Shown here: in pieces, positions 25,219 through 32,084 of the stretch
Position numbering within the stretch: the first letter of the stretch is position 1
Layout: each line of letters starts with the position of its first letter
IMG/VR virus record: IMGVR_UViG_3300035698_002397
Location: 1 to 43,974 of that record
Source of the DNA: a virus
Strand: one strand, 5' to 3'
Length of the DNA stretch: 43,974 bases
The notes under the pieces: model-generated
The model's database searches: none
What the model was told of the DNA's origin: nothing
Seen by the model: the letters and a program-made list of their open reading frames with translations, nothing else
Position numbers and translations under genes: made by a program

Positions 25219-25706
25219 TACAAGGTGGAACAATAAAACACCATATCACAATCTCAACTAAGGCGTGGTGGGTGGTACTGGCGTTACTGGGTTACTTAAT
25301 GTTCAACTCGGATAAGGTGGTTGACATTGTACCTGCAAGCGTGTGGCTAGAAGTGCACTCTATTCATGTGGAGGATGGTGGGAGCAGCCCGAATGATATC
25401 ATCCTCAAAGTGGCCCGAACGATACACCTGCCTTTCGGGGCAGATTGGTTAGTTGAACTTGAGCGTAAGAGGGGCGAACGATATGTGGTCATTTGCTCGC
25501 GGCGTGGTAATAATGATTACAGCACTGATGGCGCATTGCCTGACCCTTTAACTCTGGCTTGGTGGATGGATGACGATACGTGCCACATACCTAAAGGAAC
25601 GTACCGCCTCACCACCCGCTGGGATTTGGCCATCAAGTCAGGCAAGGTGGTACGTGTCATATCTAATGATTTTAATACTCGTTGGGCGCTGCTTCCCCGA
25701 TCGTAA
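25215..25706 (+). CDS. single-TM envelope protein at the end of the lysis cassette
   Basis: A 163-residue protein with a short N-terminal tail, one membrane segment (WWVVLALLGYLMF, about residues 18-30) and a periplasmic-type domain carrying VHSIHVEDGG, VVICSRRGNNDYS, LTLAWWMDDDTC and GTYRLTTRWDL. Three Cys-or-Trp-rich strands look like a small beta domain. I recall similar proteins in lysis regions of other podoviruses but know no function; a spanin-like or inhibitor role is speculative. Its last 35 nt overlap the convergent gene. Confidence 0.75.
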   Translation: MIQGGTIKHHITISTKAWWVVLALLGYLMFNSDKVVDIVPASVWLEVHSIHVEDGGSSPNDIILKVARTIHLPFGADWLVELERKRGERYVVICSRRGNNDYSTDGALPDPLTLAWWMDDDTCHIPKGTYRLTTRWDLAIKSGKVVRVISNDFNTRWALLPRS

Positions 25707-26883
25707 ACGCCAGCCCTACCTTGGGGTAGCTTTTAACCACTATCATACCTGAGTCAACCATCGTCTTGATTATAGTTTCAATCTGGTACGATGGCACTCT
25801 ACCTTGCATGAACCGGATAAGCCCCACTCTTGGCATTGGCTTTCCCTTCTGCCTGATCCCCCACTGTTGCACGAGATGCCAGACATCTTCGATAACCTTA
25901 GCGTCTGAGGTGTCAGCTTTCATGCTGCGGAATATTTCAGGCATATGTGCTTCGGCCTCGATCATCCACTCAAGCGCTGTTTGAAAATCTTGTTCCTCAA
26001 TCACCAATGAATCCGTGCGACTGGCGCAGGCTACCATCATCAACTTTAGCATGTGGGCGGTTCGGCGCGTGTTGTAGTTATATAGCTTCGGGTGGTTTGG
26101 TTCGGGTACACAACCGCCGAGCTGCCATGCGTCAATAGTGTTCGCGGCTTCCTCTGTAAACGTCATGCGACCATTCATTGCTCCGATGCTACGCAGGTCT
26201 TGCTTCATCTCCGTAAATAAAGTCTCATCCTGTTCGTCACCTGCGAATAGACTGCGGCGGCGTAACTCACTAGAGAAGATCAGGAACACACGGGACATAA
26301 AGCCATGGTTCCAAATACCCTCGGGCATACCGGAATTAAGTTGTGCAGGGGTTGTGCCTGCGATGATGTTAATCTGAGGTCGGGCGAGAGAGAATGTGTT
26401 CTTGCCCTCGCCGCCGCGTCTTGACTCACTGTACGGGTGGCCGTCATAGATATCTGTAAGCTTGCCCATCATTGATGAGTCGTATTGGGGTAGCAGCACT
26501 TGCAATTCGTTTGAACAAATCTTGAGGCTGTTAAAGTCTTCGGGCTTCTGCCCTGTCACAGTCAGCGACCGAGTAGCATTGCGCAGGTCATCGATGATGG
26601 AAGCGCTGGATGCGTTGGATGGTGCGACATGGTGCTCAGGTAGACTGCCCCATAATTCGGATATGATTTTGGTAAGGGCTGTCTTGCCTACACCTGGAGG
26701 GGAGATAAGGATTGTATAGAGGTTAGGGTATAGCATGGACTGGCGGGTGTATACTCCGACCCGCCTTTCCAATGCTCCTGCCACGGTTGCAATCGCCGCC
26801 CACTTACAGAATAGAGTGGGGGAAGTTCCGTGTTTAGTGTACTCAACGAAACTGTTAACCCATGACTTAGAGTGTCTTGACAT
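25672..26883 (-). CDS. DUF3987-type replicative helicase/ATPase
   Basis: A 403-residue protein with FVEYTKHGTSPTLFCKW (residues 12-28), LYPNLYTILISPPGVGKT containing Walker A (61-68), and SNELQVLLPQYDSSMMGKLT and INIIAGTTPAQL segments. These are typical of phage DUF3987/primase-helicase-type ATPases found beside DNA polymerase. A winged-helix-like C-terminus (LIRFMQGRVPSYQIETIIKT) may bind DNA. No primase domain is visible. It directly follows the polymerase gene (TAATG-type 1-nt overlap), so polymerase and motor would be made together. Confidence 0.85.
   Translation of the reverse strand: MSRHSKSWVNSFVEYTKHGTSPTLFCKWAAIATVAGALERRVGVYTRQSMLYPNLYTILISPPGVGKTALTKIISELWGSLPEHHVAPSNASSASIIDDLRNATRSLTVTGQKPEDFNSLKICSNELQVLLPQYDSSMMGKLTDIYDGHPYSESRRGGEGKNTFSLARPQINIIAGTTPAQLNSGMPEGIWNHGFMSRVFLIFSSELRRRSLFAGDEQDETLFTEMKQDLRSIGAMNGRMTFTEEAANTIDAWQLGGCVPEPNHPKLYNYNTRRTAHMLKLMMVACASRTDSLVIEEQDFQTALEWMIEAEAHMPEIFRSMKADTSDAKVIEDVWHLVQQWGIRQKGKPMPRVGLIRFMQGRVPSYQIETIIKTMVDSGMIVVKSYPKVGLAFTIGEAAPNEY
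25716..25734 (+). terminator. weak rho-independent terminator candidate for the rightward operon
   Basis: CTACC / GGTAG form a 5-bp stem with a TTGG loop, followed by CTTTT. It lies 10 nt past the last rightward stop codon and inside the end of the convergent gene. The stem is short, so efficiency is doubtful. Confidence 0.4.
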
Positions 26884-28466
26884 TATAGATAATCTCCAAT
26901 GCTCAATGTCTTCAATGATCTGACTTTCTGCTGGCGTTTGCGGTTGTCACCTTTACCAGTCCACTTCACCAACCCATCTGGATTGCCTCGTGGTTTACCT
27001 TCCAAGTCATAATCTACCTCACCCCAGTTCCAACCTATCTTTGCATCGGCTGGGACATTGAACTCTCTGCCACCGACAAGCTGCTGTTTGACTGGTAGGG
27101 TAGCGAGTGCCCAAGGAATGATTTCATCCTCAAGCTCTTCGGGGTATTGGAATAGAAGTGAGTCATGCACCTGACATAAGAATTGAATGGGCTTGCCAAC
27201 GCGCCATAATTGCAGCATACCATGGTTGATCTCATCCGATGTAAGGGACTGAGGCTCGTAAGCAATTGCAGCACGTAGGGTTGTCGGGTCGGTGGCACGC
27301 CCCCAAAATGATCGTTTACGGCCCATCAAAGTTGTGATGGTATGATTGGCTTCCAATTGGTTTTTGCGGTCAATGTGCCATTGGGAAAGGCACGGGAAAG
27401 CGCCAAAATAAGACGATTGAAACGCGTCAATAATCTTGACGGGCATTTTCGTATGTTTCGCCATGGTCCCAGCTGTGCCGAGGTAGTTCGTACCATGCCC
27501 TAGCTTCTTAGAGGTTTGGCGATAGCTGTCCTGCCTGTAGAAAGGTTGCTCAGCGATAAGCCTCGCCGCCTTAATATCTGTCTCATCGTCAGGCCATGCA
27601 AGGTCGCGCCATGTCATCTTGGCTACGGTTGTGTGCAGGTCACCGGACTCGCAAGCATCGAGGTATGAACCAGCGAACTCAGGGCCATGTGACTCCAAGT
27701 AAAGGTTCCAGCAGATCGCGCCAACGTTGCGGCTATCACCCTGCTCTAGATCGATGTTGCAAAGCTTCATGCCTCGGTCTGCTACGAACGCGTCACGTAG
27801 TTCTCGATCGATGTTTTGCATGTTCTTACCAGTACCGAAGTCGGAAAAGGAGGATGACATGCGGCCTGTGTTTGTACCGGCTATGTTATACGAGCAACGG
27901 AAACGATTATCTGCATCGATTGCGGTCTCAAAGAACTGGCGTTTCTTATCGAGGTCACGAAGGGCGAGGATGTGAACGCAGAATACCTCAGCGTAGTAGT
28001 ACTGCTGCAATGTTTCTAGTGCATCACGGTTGGAAGTGGGGGCCATTATACCATGAGCGTTACGCTTGCGGATTGGTTTAAGGTTCAGGTAGTCCACGCC
28101 ATAGAACATACGCTTCACCTGTGCGGGGCTGCGGTAGTTAAACTTGGGGAAGCCATAAGCATCTGCGATCAGCTGAAGGTTACCGTTGATCTTATCGATC
28201 TTGCCTCTGATTTTTTCAAGGGACTGATCACGAATTACATGGTCCATGAGGATACCGCGCAAGTTCATCTCCATCACAGGGCCGCGTAAGGCTAGGGATA
28301 GATCGTAGGTCTTGCGTGTTGTCTCGGTAAGCTGTGAGTTAAGCGCCGAATGTATCTCGTGGGTAAGGCAGCAATCAAGTGCGTTATACACCTGATCTTT
28401 TGTGTCCTGATCAAGCGCAGCTAATGTGCGCTCGTCAAGATCAGCGTTCTGGATTATGTCGGCCAT
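26883..28466 (-). CDS. family A DNA polymerase, C-terminal piece (polymerase domain)
   Basis: A 527-residue replicative polymerase lacking most of its proofreading domain. Motif A is CNIDLEQGDSR (D239), motif B RQTSKKLGHGTNYLG (R316, K320, Y328), and motif C QVHDSLLF (D435, with Ser in place of the usual Glu). The first ~45 residues still contain the Exo III motif YNALD (Y27, D31) that belongs to the 3'-5' exonuclease. The rest of that domain is encoded separately at 29307-30299. The start has AGGTGA 7 nt upstream and overlaps the previous gene by 13 nt, so it is a designed gene start, not a sequencing break. Confidence 0.95.
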   Translation of the reverse strand: MADIIQNADLDERTLAALDQDTKDQVYNALDCCLTHEIHSALNSQLTETTRKTYDLSLALRGPVMEMNLRGILMDHVIRDQSLEKIRGKIDKINGNLQLIADAYGFPKFNYRSPAQVKRMFYGVDYLNLKPIRKRNAHGIMAPTSNRDALETLQQYYYAEVFCVHILALRDLDKKRQFFETAIDADNRFRCSYNIAGTNTGRMSSSFSDFGTGKNMQNIDRELRDAFVADRGMKLCNIDLEQGDSRNVGAICWNLYLESHGPEFAGSYLDACESGDLHTTVAKMTWRDLAWPDDETDIKAARLIAEQPFYRQDSYRQTSKKLGHGTNYLGTAGTMAKHTKMPVKIIDAFQSSYFGAFPCLSQWHIDRKNQLEANHTITTLMGRKRSFWGRATDPTTLRAAIAYEPQSLTSDEINHGMLQLWRVGKPIQFLCQVHDSLLFQYPEELEDEIIPWALATLPVKQQLVGGREFNVPADAKIGWNWGEVDYDLEGKPRGNPDGLVKWTGKGDNRKRQQKVRSLKTLSIGDYL

Positions 28467-28894
28467 GGCAAATCACCTGCTGCGTATTGTTGGAGTAAGG
28501 AGATACGTTCTTTCAGAATGTCGTTCTGTAGGGCGGCATTTACTTTTATGAGTTGGTATCCTGCGCCGATCACATAGATAGGGAGGGAATAAACTTTGGC
28601 CCACATCAGTTCTATTGCCACGCCCTTGCTCTTATCCCAACCTGGTATTTGAGTGAGAACGACGCCATTGCTGTGTGACACCATATGCTCATTGAACTCT
28701 ACCCAAGCCGTAGCTGACGTGCCATGATGACGCAGCTGGTGGCCGTATACGATAGGCGAAAAGACTACGTTACCTTTCCGCATCAGGTTAGAGGTGATGC
28801 GAAGATGGGCAGCGCACATGGCCTCGAAATGCGCCTCGGGGTCTTTGCACTGTGATGCGGTCTGCGGGGAGTATGGTCCTGCGACGTATAACAT
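28454..28894 (-). CDS. DUF1937-like / nucleoside deoxyribosyltransferase-like protein
   Basis: A 146-residue protein beginning MLYVAGPYS, with VVFSPIVYGHQLRHHG, a W..fn..m (WVEFNEHMVSHSNGVVL) segment and PGWDKSKGVAIELMWA. These fit the DUF1937 branch of the nucleoside 2-deoxyribosyltransferase-like fold, where the Glu in GVAIELMWA is the expected catalytic position. It may act on nucleotides, but the substrate is unknown. It lies between the two polymerase genes. Confidence 0.8.
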   Translation of the reverse strand: MLYVAGPYSPQTASQCKDPEAHFEAMCAAHLRITSNLMRKGNVVFSPIVYGHQLRHHGTSATAWVEFNEHMVSHSNGVVLTQIPGWDKSKGVAIELMWAKVYSLPIYVIGAGYQLIKVNAALQNDILKERISLLQQYAAGDLPWPT

Positions 28895-29136
28895 TAGCGC
28901 GCACCTCCGGTTGGGTCGATAGGGGGACGGATAGCTGGTCCAGCGCCGTTAAGTACTGAGGTCATTGACCCATCTTTACCGCCTTCGCCTAGCATCTCAC
29001 GAGACACGGCGCCTCGGGTGATACGCAAAGCAGACAACGTGCTCTCAGCTTCCACGATGGCATTGTCTAGCGCCTGCAAATAGAATGTACTAGCGTCCAG
29101 TGCCTTGGCAGTGTGTGTTGTTTTAAGTCCGTTCAT
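28894..29136 (-). CDS. small hypothetical protein between polymerase halves
   Basis: An 80-residue protein that I do not recognise. The first half is predicted helical (ALDASTFYLQALDNAIVEAE). The second half is Gly/Pro-rich and ends PPIDPTGGAR, probably disordered. GGAATAGAG precedes the start, and it joins the next gene by TAATG. Confidence 0.7.
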   Translation of the reverse strand: MNGLKTTHTAKALDASTFYLQALDNAIVEAESTLSALRITRGAVSREMLGEGGKDGSMTSVLNGAGPAIRPPIDPTGGAR

Positions 29137-29140
29137 TGCT

Positions 29141-29305
29141 CTATTCCTCTAACAGTTCAGACCATGGGTCTATTGCGTTTCGTTGGGCTACCTCTTTGGC
29201 AGCGATGCGGCGGATATCCTCAACGGTCTCTGCCTGTATTTCCAGTGCGTCTTCGTAGGCAACGCCATCACTGTTCATGACTGTGTAGTGTATGCGTACT
29301 AACAT
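29141..29305 (-). CDS. small hypothetical protein between polymerase halves
   Basis: A 54-residue protein, MLVRIHYTVMNSDGVAYEDA, with a helical second half (TVEDIRRIAAKEVAQRNA). It looks like a small alpha/beta fold. The start at 29305 has AAGGAGG 6 nt upstream, and that site overlaps the stop codon of the exonuclease gene. The longer in-frame extension lacks such a site. Function unknown. Confidence 0.75.
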   Translation of the reverse strand: MLVRIHYTVMNSDGVAYEDALEIQAETVEDIRRIAAKEVAQRNAIDPWSELLEE

Positions 29306-29306
29306 G

Positions 29307-30299
29307 TTAGTCCTCCTTTTTGGTTGTGTCCTTATTGGCTCGCATGAACTTCCATTGAGGCTCATGAGAATATAATGAACCGAGGAAGCCCAAGCCCTTT
29401 TCCATTTCGGGCTGGAGTGCGTGCTGCATTAGCATCGTATCCTCGGTTGCGTTTGGTAGGGCAATGCCGTACTCCTTCCAGAGATAGGTCATGTCATAGT
29501 TAAAGTTTTGCCCTACGATCTTCTTAGCGTTGGTACACCAGCGGCGTACATATTCCCACGCTTGTAGTTCTTCTGTGGCTGTGTCCCAATAGTTCCTGCT
29601 CATCTTCTTGTGTGTGAAGAACGGGACTACGATTGCGAACTCAGGTGAAGGGGCGAAACCTACGCATGTGATCTGCGGTGTCTTGGTCTCGATGTCGATG
29701 CTCAGTAAGTCTGAACTGAGGATGCGATCATTAACTGCGGCGAGGTCATCGAGTGTGGGGTTGATCCATAGCTCACGACGAGGGCGGATGACGTCTGGGT
29801 ACTCCGCTTCACGCGCACACTTGGCAAAGTCTGACTCGATCACAGGACGCAGCTTGAACTCGGACATGACTGAACGCGGTGAGTATGTGGCGATAAGTTT
29901 GCCGAACTCAGTGGCGATCGGACTGCCGCGATACTTACGCAGAGAACGTTCGGAGGTTAGCAGCCAGAGTGGGATTTGCCCAAGGCCTATGATAAGGTTA
30001 GGAGAGATGGTAAGGAGTTGCTCCTTAGTCTCGATCAAGTCTTGTTCGTACTGGGCCAGCACATATTTGTTTGTCATCACTGCGCGTGAGTTAGCAATGC
30101 CCAGTGATTTGGGTCCGACGAATGAGAACACTGAGCTGGCGGCTTTCTTGAACACAGGTATTACTGTGACGTCAGCCATGTCAATGCCTTGCCTCTCGCA
30201 CATGCCCTTGATCATACGGCCTGAACCGTCAGCCAATAGTTCCTCGGCATCTTCGTCGCCACGGGTTTGGTGCTCGGTGAGAATTACAATACTAGTCAT
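29307..30299 (-). CDS. 3'-5' exonuclease piece of split family A polymerase, with UDG-like N-terminal domain
   Basis: A 330-residue protein. Residues 1 to about 145 look like a degenerate uracil-DNA glycosylase-superfamily domain (VILTEHQ..., SGRMIKGMCERQGIDMADVT, PNLIIGLGQIPLWLL) without the usual catalytic GExPG. Residues about 185-330 are a DEDD exonuclease: Exo I SIDIET (D202, E204) and Exo II GQNFNYDMTYL (D269), then EDTMLMQHALQPEMEKGLGF. It stops at EPQWKFMR...KKED before Exo III, which is at the start of the polymerase gene 841 nt further on. The halves presumably assemble. The start overlaps the upstream gene by 8 nt. Confidence 0.9.
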   Translation of the reverse strand: MTSIVILTEHQTRGDEDAEELLADGSGRMIKGMCERQGIDMADVTVIPVFKKAASSVFSFVGPKSLGIANSRAVMTNKYVLAQYEQDLIETKEQLLTISPNLIIGLGQIPLWLLTSERSLRKYRGSPIATEFGKLIATYSPRSVMSEFKLRPVIESDFAKCAREAEYPDVIRPRRELWINPTLDDLAAVNDRILSSDLLSIDIETKTPQITCVGFAPSPEFAIVVPFFTHKKMSRNYWDTATEELQAWEYVRRWCTNAKKIVGQNFNYDMTYLWKEYGIALPNATEDTMLMQHALQPEMEKGLGFLGSLYSHEPQWKFMRANKDTTKKED

Positions 30300-30723
30300 C
30301 CATGTTTACCCCGCAATGTTTGCAGTAATTTGTGTCAGCGCTGAATGAATTGTAAGACTCGCAAGTGTGGTCAGCTGCTATAGCGCGGTCGAACAGTGCG
30401 ATGACCTCGGCATGGGTGCGTGAGTCGTTGAACGCTACGAGCTTCTGTACATCATAGGGGTAAGCAGTGTCGCAGTCCTCGGGCAAAGCGCCAGCTACTA
30501 CGCCCATTACGTGACGATGCAGTGGGGCGAGTGTCTTGCCCATGCGCTTTTCCTCTGGGCGTACCACTTTATTGATAGCGCCTGTGATGCACCAGCAGGC
30601 CGCTTCAGGATGGTCAGGCCAAACGGCTAGGCCCATCTTATCTCTGGCGGCTGTGCCCTGTACCCAATTACTTTCGAGGAGGATGGTTTCTCGTGCGGCT
30701 TGCATTAGTTCTAGTGCTGTCAT
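30292..30723 (-). CDS. DUF6197-like hypothetical protein with Cys-rich tail
   Basis: A 143-residue protein with ALELMQAARETILLESNWVQG and AACWCITGAINKVV, as in the DUF6197 group of small phage/bacterial proteins. The C-terminus CESYN...NYCKHCGVNMDD looks like a partial zinc ribbon. No function is known. I chose 30723 because AAGGAA lies 8 nt upstream and MTALELM is the natural start. Confidence 0.75.
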   Translation of the reverse strand: MTALELMQAARETILLESNWVQGTAARDKMGLAVWPDHPEAACWCITGAINKVVRPEEKRMGKTLAPLHRHVMGVVAGALPEDCDTAYPYDVQKLVAFNDSRTHAEVIALFDRAIAADHTCESYNSFSADTNYCKHCGVNMDD

Positions 30724-30776
30724 TGGCTTTGTTCCTTGTTGACTGTATGTATTAGGAAAGGGGTTCCGCAACCATA

Positions 30777-32084
30777 CTAGGACTCACGACCCTTCCATGC
30801 GTCAACAGCTGCGGCGTAGAACTCAGGGCTTTTCTCAATGCCGAGTGCATCTTTGGCTCCAGCTTTAAGTGCGGATAGGACAGCGTTACCACTGCCACAT
30901 GTCGGGTCGAGCATCAATGTCGTGCTGTCGATATACATCTCCATGAAGTGATCGAGCATTGCGACAGGCTTCTCACTCATGTGCATGACTTTAATGTTCG
31001 AGCTGCCCACGGTGTTAGCTTTCATCTTAGCTATGAAGCGATCGCCTCGGATGCAGTGAAAGGCAGTTTCATAGATGCGGCGTGGCTGACGTTTGGCATC
31101 AGGCGCAATACCCTTGTTGTCAGTCTTGTGCCAAACCAGTGGGAACGGTGATACTATCCAGCCCATCTGTTCAAGCGCTGCCTTAGTCTCAGTATAGAAG
31201 TCCATGCTGAACCAGAACATTAAGTGTGCGTCAGGTGCGATGATCGTGTTCATGTTATCTGCGAGGGCTGCGATGAGTGCCCAGTATACATCGATACCGT
31301 CCTCGTAACTTCCGAAGTTCTTACGTGCGGACTGGTCGGAGTCTTGCATGCCCACGCCGTATGGGAAATCGCAGTGGATGAAGTTGAAATGTGCGCCCGT
31401 GTATGTCTTGGCCCACTCGGTGAAGTCAGCGTTGATCAATGGGACCTCGCCCTCTACCATTGGGGCAGGGATAACCACGCGCTCAGGTGGAAGCTGCAAG
31501 GCTGCGGGTGCGACAATGCTGCTGATCAGGTCGGCGATCTCGCTCGTCTCTTCATTGCCCTCGCGGTTGTTCTTGCGTTCAACAATACTCTTGGCGACGG
31601 AAATCTTAGGCGCCTCGATAACTGCGGTGTTGCCCTCGGCGATCTCGTTTGCAATGCTGAGCCAGTTGCGACCCGTACGATCAGTCACCCCGATCTGCGC
31701 CGATGTCTTAGCTACGTTCCAATCCTTCTGCTCTGCGCCAAGGAGTTCGTGCATACGTTTGAAAGCTGACACTTGGTCCTGCCAAGGCAGGTCAACGCGC
31801 TTGATGTTTTCTTCTAGCTCGATAAGCTGTAGCTCGTTACTGCCTAGGTCCTCAAGGAAGTGGACTGGGATATCTGTCCAACCGAGGTTACGCATAGCAG
31901 TAAGGCGGCGTTCACCTGCAATGAGTGTACCGCTTCGTGTAATGACTGGGTTGTTAATGAGGCCGACGTTAGCGATAGAGTGCATCAAGGACTCGATATC
32001 TTCTAACTTACGGCGCTGGCGAGTGTCGCGCTTAACCACTATGAAATCTGATTTTACTACGCCGTGGCTGTTCTTCTTGGTCAT
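30777..32084 (-). CDS. ParB-domain / DNA methyltransferase fusion
   Basis: A 435-residue two-domain protein. Residues 1 to about 120 are a ParB/Srx-like nuclease domain with GLINNPVI (41-48), GERRLTA (57-63) and EENIKR (91-96), followed by a helical KorB/HTH-like linker (AQIGVTDRTGRNWL). Residues about 205-435 form an N4/N6 amino-methyltransferase with CDFPYG (238-243, a DPPY variant) ahead of the SAM-binding LDPTCGSGNAV (about 392-402), i.e. beta-type order. No cognate restriction enzyme is seen, so self-protection or gene control is likely. It is the first gene after a strong terminator. Confidence 0.9.
   Translation of the reverse strand: MTKKNSHGVVKSDFIVVKRDTRQRRKLEDIESLMHSIANVGLINNPVITRSGTLIAGERRLTAMRNLGWTDIPVHFLEDLGSNELQLIELEENIKRVDLPWQDQVSAFKRMHELLGAEQKDWNVAKTSAQIGVTDRTGRNWLSIANEIAEGNTAVIEAPKISVAKSIVERKNNREGNEETSEIADLISSIVAPAALQLPPERVVIPAPMVEGEVPLINADFTEWAKTYTGAHFNFIHCDFPYGVGMQDSDQSARKNFGSYEDGIDVYWALIAALADNMNTIIAPDAHLMFWFSMDFYTETKAALEQMGWIVSPFPLVWHKTDNKGIAPDAKRQPRRIYETAFHCIRGDRFIAKMKANTVGSSNIKVMHMSEKPVAMLDHFMEMYIDSTTLMLDPTCGSGNAVLSALKAGAKDALGIEKSPEFYAAAVDAWKGRES

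Follow-up and report, generated by a model that had tools for sequence, protein, structure and literature searches.

Background

Phage enzymes that work in pieces are already known. In the T4-like Aeromonas phages 25 and 44RR, gene 43 is split and its two products, gp43A and gp43B, co-purify and have polymerase activity; in Aeromonas phage Aeh1, NrdA is split by insertion of mobE and works as two polypeptides (PMC2988022). The subject of the present work is a family A DNA polymerase encoded by the IMG/VR-type virus record IMGVR_UViG_3300035698_002397, whose whole stretch of 43,974 nucleotides is called the window below. Its coding sequence is divided between two genes on the minus strand, one for an exonuclease-containing part (exo half) and one for the polymerase part (pol half), and the division passes through the proofreading site.

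The described systems resemble this locus to a varying degree. Like the polymerase of the window, the gp43A/gp43B pair is a replicative phage DNA polymerase encoded as two pieces, wherever its break falls with respect to the exonuclease residues, but it belongs to family B and is reported from a few related phages. The NrdA case concerns a ribonucleotide reductase and is reported for one phage, whereas here a polymerase is split throughout a clade. PolA of the OM43 phages MEP401 and MEP402 occupies two open reading frames (ORFs) with a small gene between them, for which the authors suspected an intron (PMC10580990); there the break falls within the polymerase domain and leaves the first ORF with an intact exonuclease. 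ExnV1 (PDB 7r0t), a stand-alone PolA-type exonuclease domain from a viral metagenome, is thought to come from a truncated gene (PMC9629493) but has the full set of Exo motifs, with Exo III among them. Finally, PolB of phage MIJ3 is encoded by a fractured gene with a split intein (PMC6892783). Such genes share with ours a polymerase in pieces and a gene in the gap, but their products are joined by protein splicing.

In the open-access literature of PubMed Central we came across no description of a family A polymerase whose exonuclease site is divided, or of such a split kept throughout a clade, and the searched passages of a survey of Caudoviricetes polymerases make no mention of an exonuclease-site split (PMC11348598). 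The split polymerases we found in the literature are isolated cases or are broken elsewhere, whereas here a whole clade is cut through the proofreading site.

Results

A first-pass annotation, made from the sequence of the window alone, had described a polymerase split inside its proofreading domain into proteins of 330 and 527 residues, and both the coordinates (Table 1) and Pfam agree with it. DNA_pol_A_exo1 matches residues 183-307 of the exo half, although this PF01612 match spans only profile positions 7-124 of 173, and DNA_pol_A (PF00476) matches residues 98-483 of the pol half (E 1.6e-26). The exo half consists of an N-terminal domain similar to uracil-DNA glycosylases (UDG), followed by a 3'-5' exonuclease domain with Exo I and Exo II, the latter in the context Q-N-x3-D269. 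It terminates 14 residues past W316, before Exo III. The pol half begins 26 residues upstream of the Exo III motif Y27-N-A-L-D31 and continues with polymerase motifs A (D239), B (K320/Y328) and C (H434-D435). D202, E204 and D269 of the exo half and Y27 and D31 of the pol half are found where they had been annotated, and they align with the Exo I, II and III residues of single-gene (fused) relatives. All residues of a DEDDy 3'-5' exonuclease are present, but they are shared out over two proteins. The gap between the genes contains three small genes, as had been noted, and is 840 base pairs (bp) long (28467-29306) instead of 841. The pol gene has its own Shine-Dalgarno-like AGGTG upstream of the start codon.

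The arrangement had been treated as an isolated case with three intervening genes. Seven scans of IMG/VR with window, exo or pol queries fed into a set of 413 split loci, which reduce to 250 distinct ones, with varying cargo in the gap. The clade is a large group of tailed phages, most of them uncultured. The usual family A form, with exonuclease and polymerase on one polypeptide, was found in none of these loci: each has two genes, and no scan of the split clade returned a fused gene. The break always lies between a conserved W-K and Exo III, while pol halves within the clade are as little as about 38% identical. The split form is also present on three contigs of metagenome-assembled genomes. 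Among the phage records found, Caulobacter phage Kuura alone has the arrangement of the window: its exo gene, Kuura_029, annotated as "hypothetical protein", is followed by two small genes and then by the pol gene, Kuura_026, annotated as "DNA polymerase".

Spacing between the two genes is -4 bp in 22 loci (an ATGA overlap), -1 in 11 and 0 in 6, with a median of about 400 bp and a maximum of 1924 bp, apart from locus L044, where it is largest and the exo gene sits about 5.1 kb from pol. L044 had been considered a locus without exo, none being present within 5 kb, and this candidate was rejected. Loss of the exo gene was not seen in any locus with sufficiently long flanks. Gaps of 30 bp or less occur in 46 loci. 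Because stop and start codons overlap in 33 loci, coupled synthesis of the two proteins is suggested where the genes touch. In L018 and L122, exo and pol share one frame and are separated by a single stop codon. In IMGVR_UViG_3300020045_019936 (L141 / L410), a 5.8-kb contig, exo and pol lie on opposite strands, through either a real inversion or a mis-assembly.

A search for the fused form, suggested in the first-pass annotation, did find such relatives: MW202489, Microcystis phage Mel-JY34 and IMG/VR loci, the fused group coming from an eighth IMG/VR scan with fused relatives as query. These single-chain enzymes (phrog_17) have the same domains in the same order, the same catalytic motifs and a similar neighbourhood. 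One change explains the split or fused state on a 185-row FastTree phylogeny, and in a 73-row IQ-TREE phylogeny under a mixture model the split rows form one side of a branch with support of 99 in the SH-aLRT test. The ancestor was presumably fused, since Klenow-like polymerases are generally single-chain. Fused relatives have about 18 residues between the W and Exo III, whereas the two halves together have about 14 + 23; both halves have therefore gained new ends. The exo tail reads ...T-I-K-K/R-E/D-D, and the pol half often starts with M-K/R-I-I-x-T. A single ancestral gene corresponds to two ORFs, each with its own start and stop, as in split enzymes assembled in trans. The split dates far back and characterises the whole clade; the genes in the gap are interchangeable cargo. 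Other breaks were seen among relatives. Vibrio phage vB_VspS_VS-ABTNL-3 (L003:1906-5040) has a related polymerase with the exonuclease fused and the polymerase domain broken, a 185-amino-acid (aa) ORF lying between the parts. Two fused-clade members (L195:679-3383 and L241:3456-6127) have the exonuclease region interrupted by about 236 bp that break the frame and have no Rfam match.

Among legible split loci, D202 and E204 are conserved in 247/247, D269 in 248/248, Y27 in 250/250 and D31 in 249/250. The exceptional D31N, in L110, proved to be an artefact of a start mis-called due to an intein-like insertion in pol; the D is present. This insertion of about 290 aa (L110:6363-8798), recognised by eye and without a Pfam intein match, extends in the polymerase domain from a Cys after FGTG to ...TGN before TNLQN. 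D239, K320 and H434-D435 are likewise invariant among legible sequences, and position 328 is Y or F. Both halves are under strong purifying selection: across 38 close pairs, the median ratio of nonsynonymous to synonymous substitution rates (omega) is 0.10 for exo and 0.088 for pol, with a maximum of 0.19.

Co-evolution of the halves was analysed by mean-field direct coupling analysis (DCA) on 239 paired sequences (effective number 188), using pol residues 1-200. Couplings across the split (exo 286-pol 58, z 12.8; exo 294-pol 57, z 12.5; exo 292-pol 42, z 7.9) rank among the strongest of all long-range pairs. They join a strand-helix segment past Exo II (exo 284-295) to the end of the Exo III helix and the stretch that follows it (pol 42-58). 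Positions 286 and 58 are occupied by E/K in 62 cases, H/R in 52, D/K in 21, E/R in 19 and D/R in 17, in contrast to the pairs D/L, G/L, H/L and N/L; judged from these residues, the pairing looks like a salt-bridge rule. The couplings persist in loci with gaps above 200 bp (286-58, z 8.1; 294-57, z 13.5). When the same exo sequences were paired with the linked DUF3987 protein as a control, z reached at most 6.2, against 11.4 and 11.4 for exo and pol on the control's loci, and randomly re-paired exo and pol sequences gave a maximum of 4.3. On the tree, co-changes arose repeatedly and independently: each top pair has about 12 in the same direction versus 0.1 in the opposite one (median p 0.0005). 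Mutual information with average product correction (MI-APC) is weaker and noisier than DCA, with 286-58 first overall and at large gaps. A coupling of exo 178 to pol 4 does not stand out from the control maximum (z 5.9-6.5 against 6.2) and was not relied on.

The exo half of the window alone was modelled with a mean pLDDT of 91.1. The top Foldseek match of this model is phiLo PolA; family 4 UDG/UdgX, ExnV1, Klenow and G20c PolI are also matched. In L122 the exo stop TAA directly abuts the pol ATG, so that read-through gives a natural 837-residue chain, which was modelled from a 68-row alignment with 2 rows spanning both halves (pLDDT 91.4, pTM 0.88). The pLDDT drops under 50 in the exo tail (327-337) alone; the Exo III helix is predicted with confidence, and the strand formed by pol residues 2-5 with low to moderate confidence. 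The model aligns with Klenow (1kln) over 648 columns with a TM-score of 0.76 by target length, and with G20c PolI over 747 columns with 0.71. As modelled, the read-through homologue is one Klenow-like fold, and because of this fold the catalytic residues are expected to converge.

Residues 1-170 of the exo half make up a family-4-UDG-like domain, which the first-pass annotation had not recognised. Family 4 UDG and UdgX are matched both by profile and by fold; sequence profiles place the match at residues 3-169. The motif of this domain is TYHP, TFHP or TWHP in most of the clade and TYSP in the window, and the domain in the window's own subgroup is possibly a non-catalytic version, judging by the motif.

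Discussion

Since the catalytic residues are invariant, both halves are under purifying selection, couplings cross the split and the read-through homologue has a Klenow-like fold, we favour a naturally split exonuclease site. The first-pass annotation had offered this outcome beside an error-prone polymerase, which the residues, the selection and the couplings disfavour. We propose, with considerable confidence, that the two genes encode a family A polymerase of two subunits, which complete its proofreading site in trans; very probably the halves come together again and proofread. The ancestor would have been a single-chain UDG-like/exo/pol enzyme that suffered a single break in the loop immediately ahead of the Exo III helix, and its parts would now be the two subunits of one replicative DNA polymerase. 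The Exo III helix of pol (Y27, D31) would dock into the exo subunit by Exo I and Exo II (D202, E204, D269), completing the DEDDy two-metal site in trans, and exo 286-295 would hold the heterodimer together by touching pol 42-58, perhaps helped by the strand at the new N-terminus of pol. We infer that the separate chains assemble, that metal is bound, that the exonuclease is active and that exo depends on pol.

Several points weigh against this proposal. The complex was judged through a read-through relative, which is a covalently joined chain. The state groupings of the tree test were picked after the pair tables had been seen, and in MI-APC 286-58 is not on top among the 46 small-gap loci. 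Moreover, co-evolution indicates contact and does not distinguish joined from separate chains.

The exo half could instead be a relic, decaying or kept for its UDG-like domain, with pol alone an exonuclease-minus, error-prone enzyme. Neither half alone has the complete set of Exo residues, and divergent phage PolA are known to lose the exonuclease, according to passages of the Caudoviricetes survey (PMC11348598). Nevertheless, no legible split locus has lost any of the Exo residues, not even those of Exo III on pol, where a relic would drift; exo has an omega of 0.10, co-evolves with pol and is not lost where flanks are long enough. Conservation and omega rule out decay of exo, and we regard the relic explanation as a whole as very improbable. 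Marginally less credible still is that the halves are joined into a single chain by a trans-spliced intron, a split intein, ribosome bypass or read-through, even though the genes of L018 and L122 are in one frame with one stop codon between them and split inteins exist in phage DNA polymerases (PMC6892783). At positions 25500-31000 no Rfam family was found, and a group I or II intron RNA had no Rfam match there up to E 0.1. N- or C-terminal intein segments are absent at the break, the new ends of about 14 and about 23 residues beyond the conserved positions being too short for intein halves. Read-through or bypass is ill-suited to spacings that range between -4 bp and about 5 kb and to cargo genes and frames that vary, and pol has its own start and Shine-Dalgarno-like site. 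The division might also stem from faulty sequencing or assembly or from a recent frameshift; the first-pass annotation had named a frameshift or an assembly error as what would refute the split. The window is indeed a metagenomic contig, but the interruption consists of 840 bp with open genes, not of a single base, and the arrangement recurs in 250 distinct loci and in the isolate Kuura, for which a restriction digest served to check the assembly (PMC9959647). Recurrence in hundreds of independently assembled contigs and an isolate genome rules out an assembly error, and we give error of any kind practically no weight.

The two-subunit polymerase may also have a use for its division, although we consider this rather unlikely: exo-free pol would be an exonuclease-minus, strand-displacing enzyme, and gene spacing together with translational coupling would set the ratio of exo to pol, which would tune proofreading and so the mutation rate of the phage. 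If true, the proofreading subunit of this replicase would be detachable, although the polymerase subunit supplies part of its active site. More generally, the clade is a natural test of a two-metal active site built at a protein-protein interface, with co-evolving contact pairs to try, and by mixing the subunits one might add proofreading to this polymerase or leave it out. Many phage genomes are mis-annotated in this respect, with a "hypothetical" exo gene and a seemingly exonuclease-less polymerase, as in Kuura.

How the gene was broken is a matter of origin and not of function. A homing endonuclease gene may have inserted before Exo III and broken the gene once, other cargo replacing it later, an account compatible with the two-subunit explanation. 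Among 134 loci with gaps above 60 bp, whose content was surveyed, 13 ORFs in two smaller clusters are HNH_3 genes, beside DUF1937 in 44 loci and DUF7768 in 29; an AP2-HNH ORF freshly cuts the exo half in L008, and T4-like phages provide precedents (PMC2988022). Yet other genes fill most gaps, the gap is no longer than 30 bp in 46 loci, the HNH genes may have arrived later, and the gap of the window itself contains no homing endonuclease by Pfam. We consider this origin plausible but unproved, with the balance somewhat against it. In L008 (L008:2828-4432, IMGVR_UViG_3300028800_001401) the exo half is cut again, into a 170-aa UDG-like protein and a 201-aa exonuclease separated by a 180-aa AP2/HNH_3 ORF, so that the polymerase appears to be in three parts.

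Genomic context

Table 1. Coordinates of the split polymerase genes and neighbouring features in the window
Feature	Position	Strand	Evidence or remark
Exo half, 330 aa	29307-30299	-	PF01612, phrog_17, fold matches, alignment with fused relatives
Pol half, 527 aa	26883-28466	-	PF00476, phrog_17, alignment
Exo I codons D202-I203-E204	29688-29696	-	Invariant, 247/247 legible split loci
Exo II codon D269	29493-29495	-	Invariant, 248/248
Exo III codons Y27 to D31, in pol gene	28374-28388	-	Y27 250/250, D31 249/250
Co-evolving interface, exo residues 286-295	29415-29444	-	DCA couplings to pol 42-58
Co-evolving interface, pol residues 42-58	28293-28343	-	DCA couplings to exo 286-295
Conserved exo C-terminal tail (W316-K317 ... 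T-K-K-E-D)	29310-29354	-	W-K 250/250 split loci; low model confidence
New pol-half N-terminus M-A-D-I-I	28452-28466	-	Strand-like in modelled homologue
Gap gene 1, 54 aa	29141-29305	-	No family match
Gap gene 2, 80 aa	28894-29136	-	No family match, singleton
Gap gene 3, 146 aa	28454-28894	-	DUF1937/DUF4406, nucleoside 2-deoxyribosyltransferase-like; cluster in gap of 44 split loci
DUF3987 primase/helicase-like gene, downstream neighbour	25672-26883	-	Co-evolution control partner
ParB_N/DNA methylase gene, upstream neighbour	30777-32084	-	Synteny marker common to fused and split relatives
DUF6197 gene	30292-30771	-	

On the minus strand the order of genes is ParB_N/DNA-methylase, DUF6197, exo half, three small genes, pol half and DUF3987. 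The first-pass annotation started gap gene 1 at 29365. That start gives 74 aa and a 59-bp overlap with the exo gene; 29305 is the better one, with an AGGAGG that overlaps the exo stop. DUF1937/DUF4406 and DUF7768 genes are recurrent in the polymerase gap (for example window 28454-28894 and L280:1336-1827), and DUF1937 matches nucleoside deoxyribosyltransferase PHROGs.

The region 1-24000 of the window carries podovirus-like (short-tailed) structural genes, including those for a large terminase, a head-tail adaptor (phrog_332), a major head protein and an internal virion protein with an endolysin domain, in agreement with Kuura, which is a podovirus.

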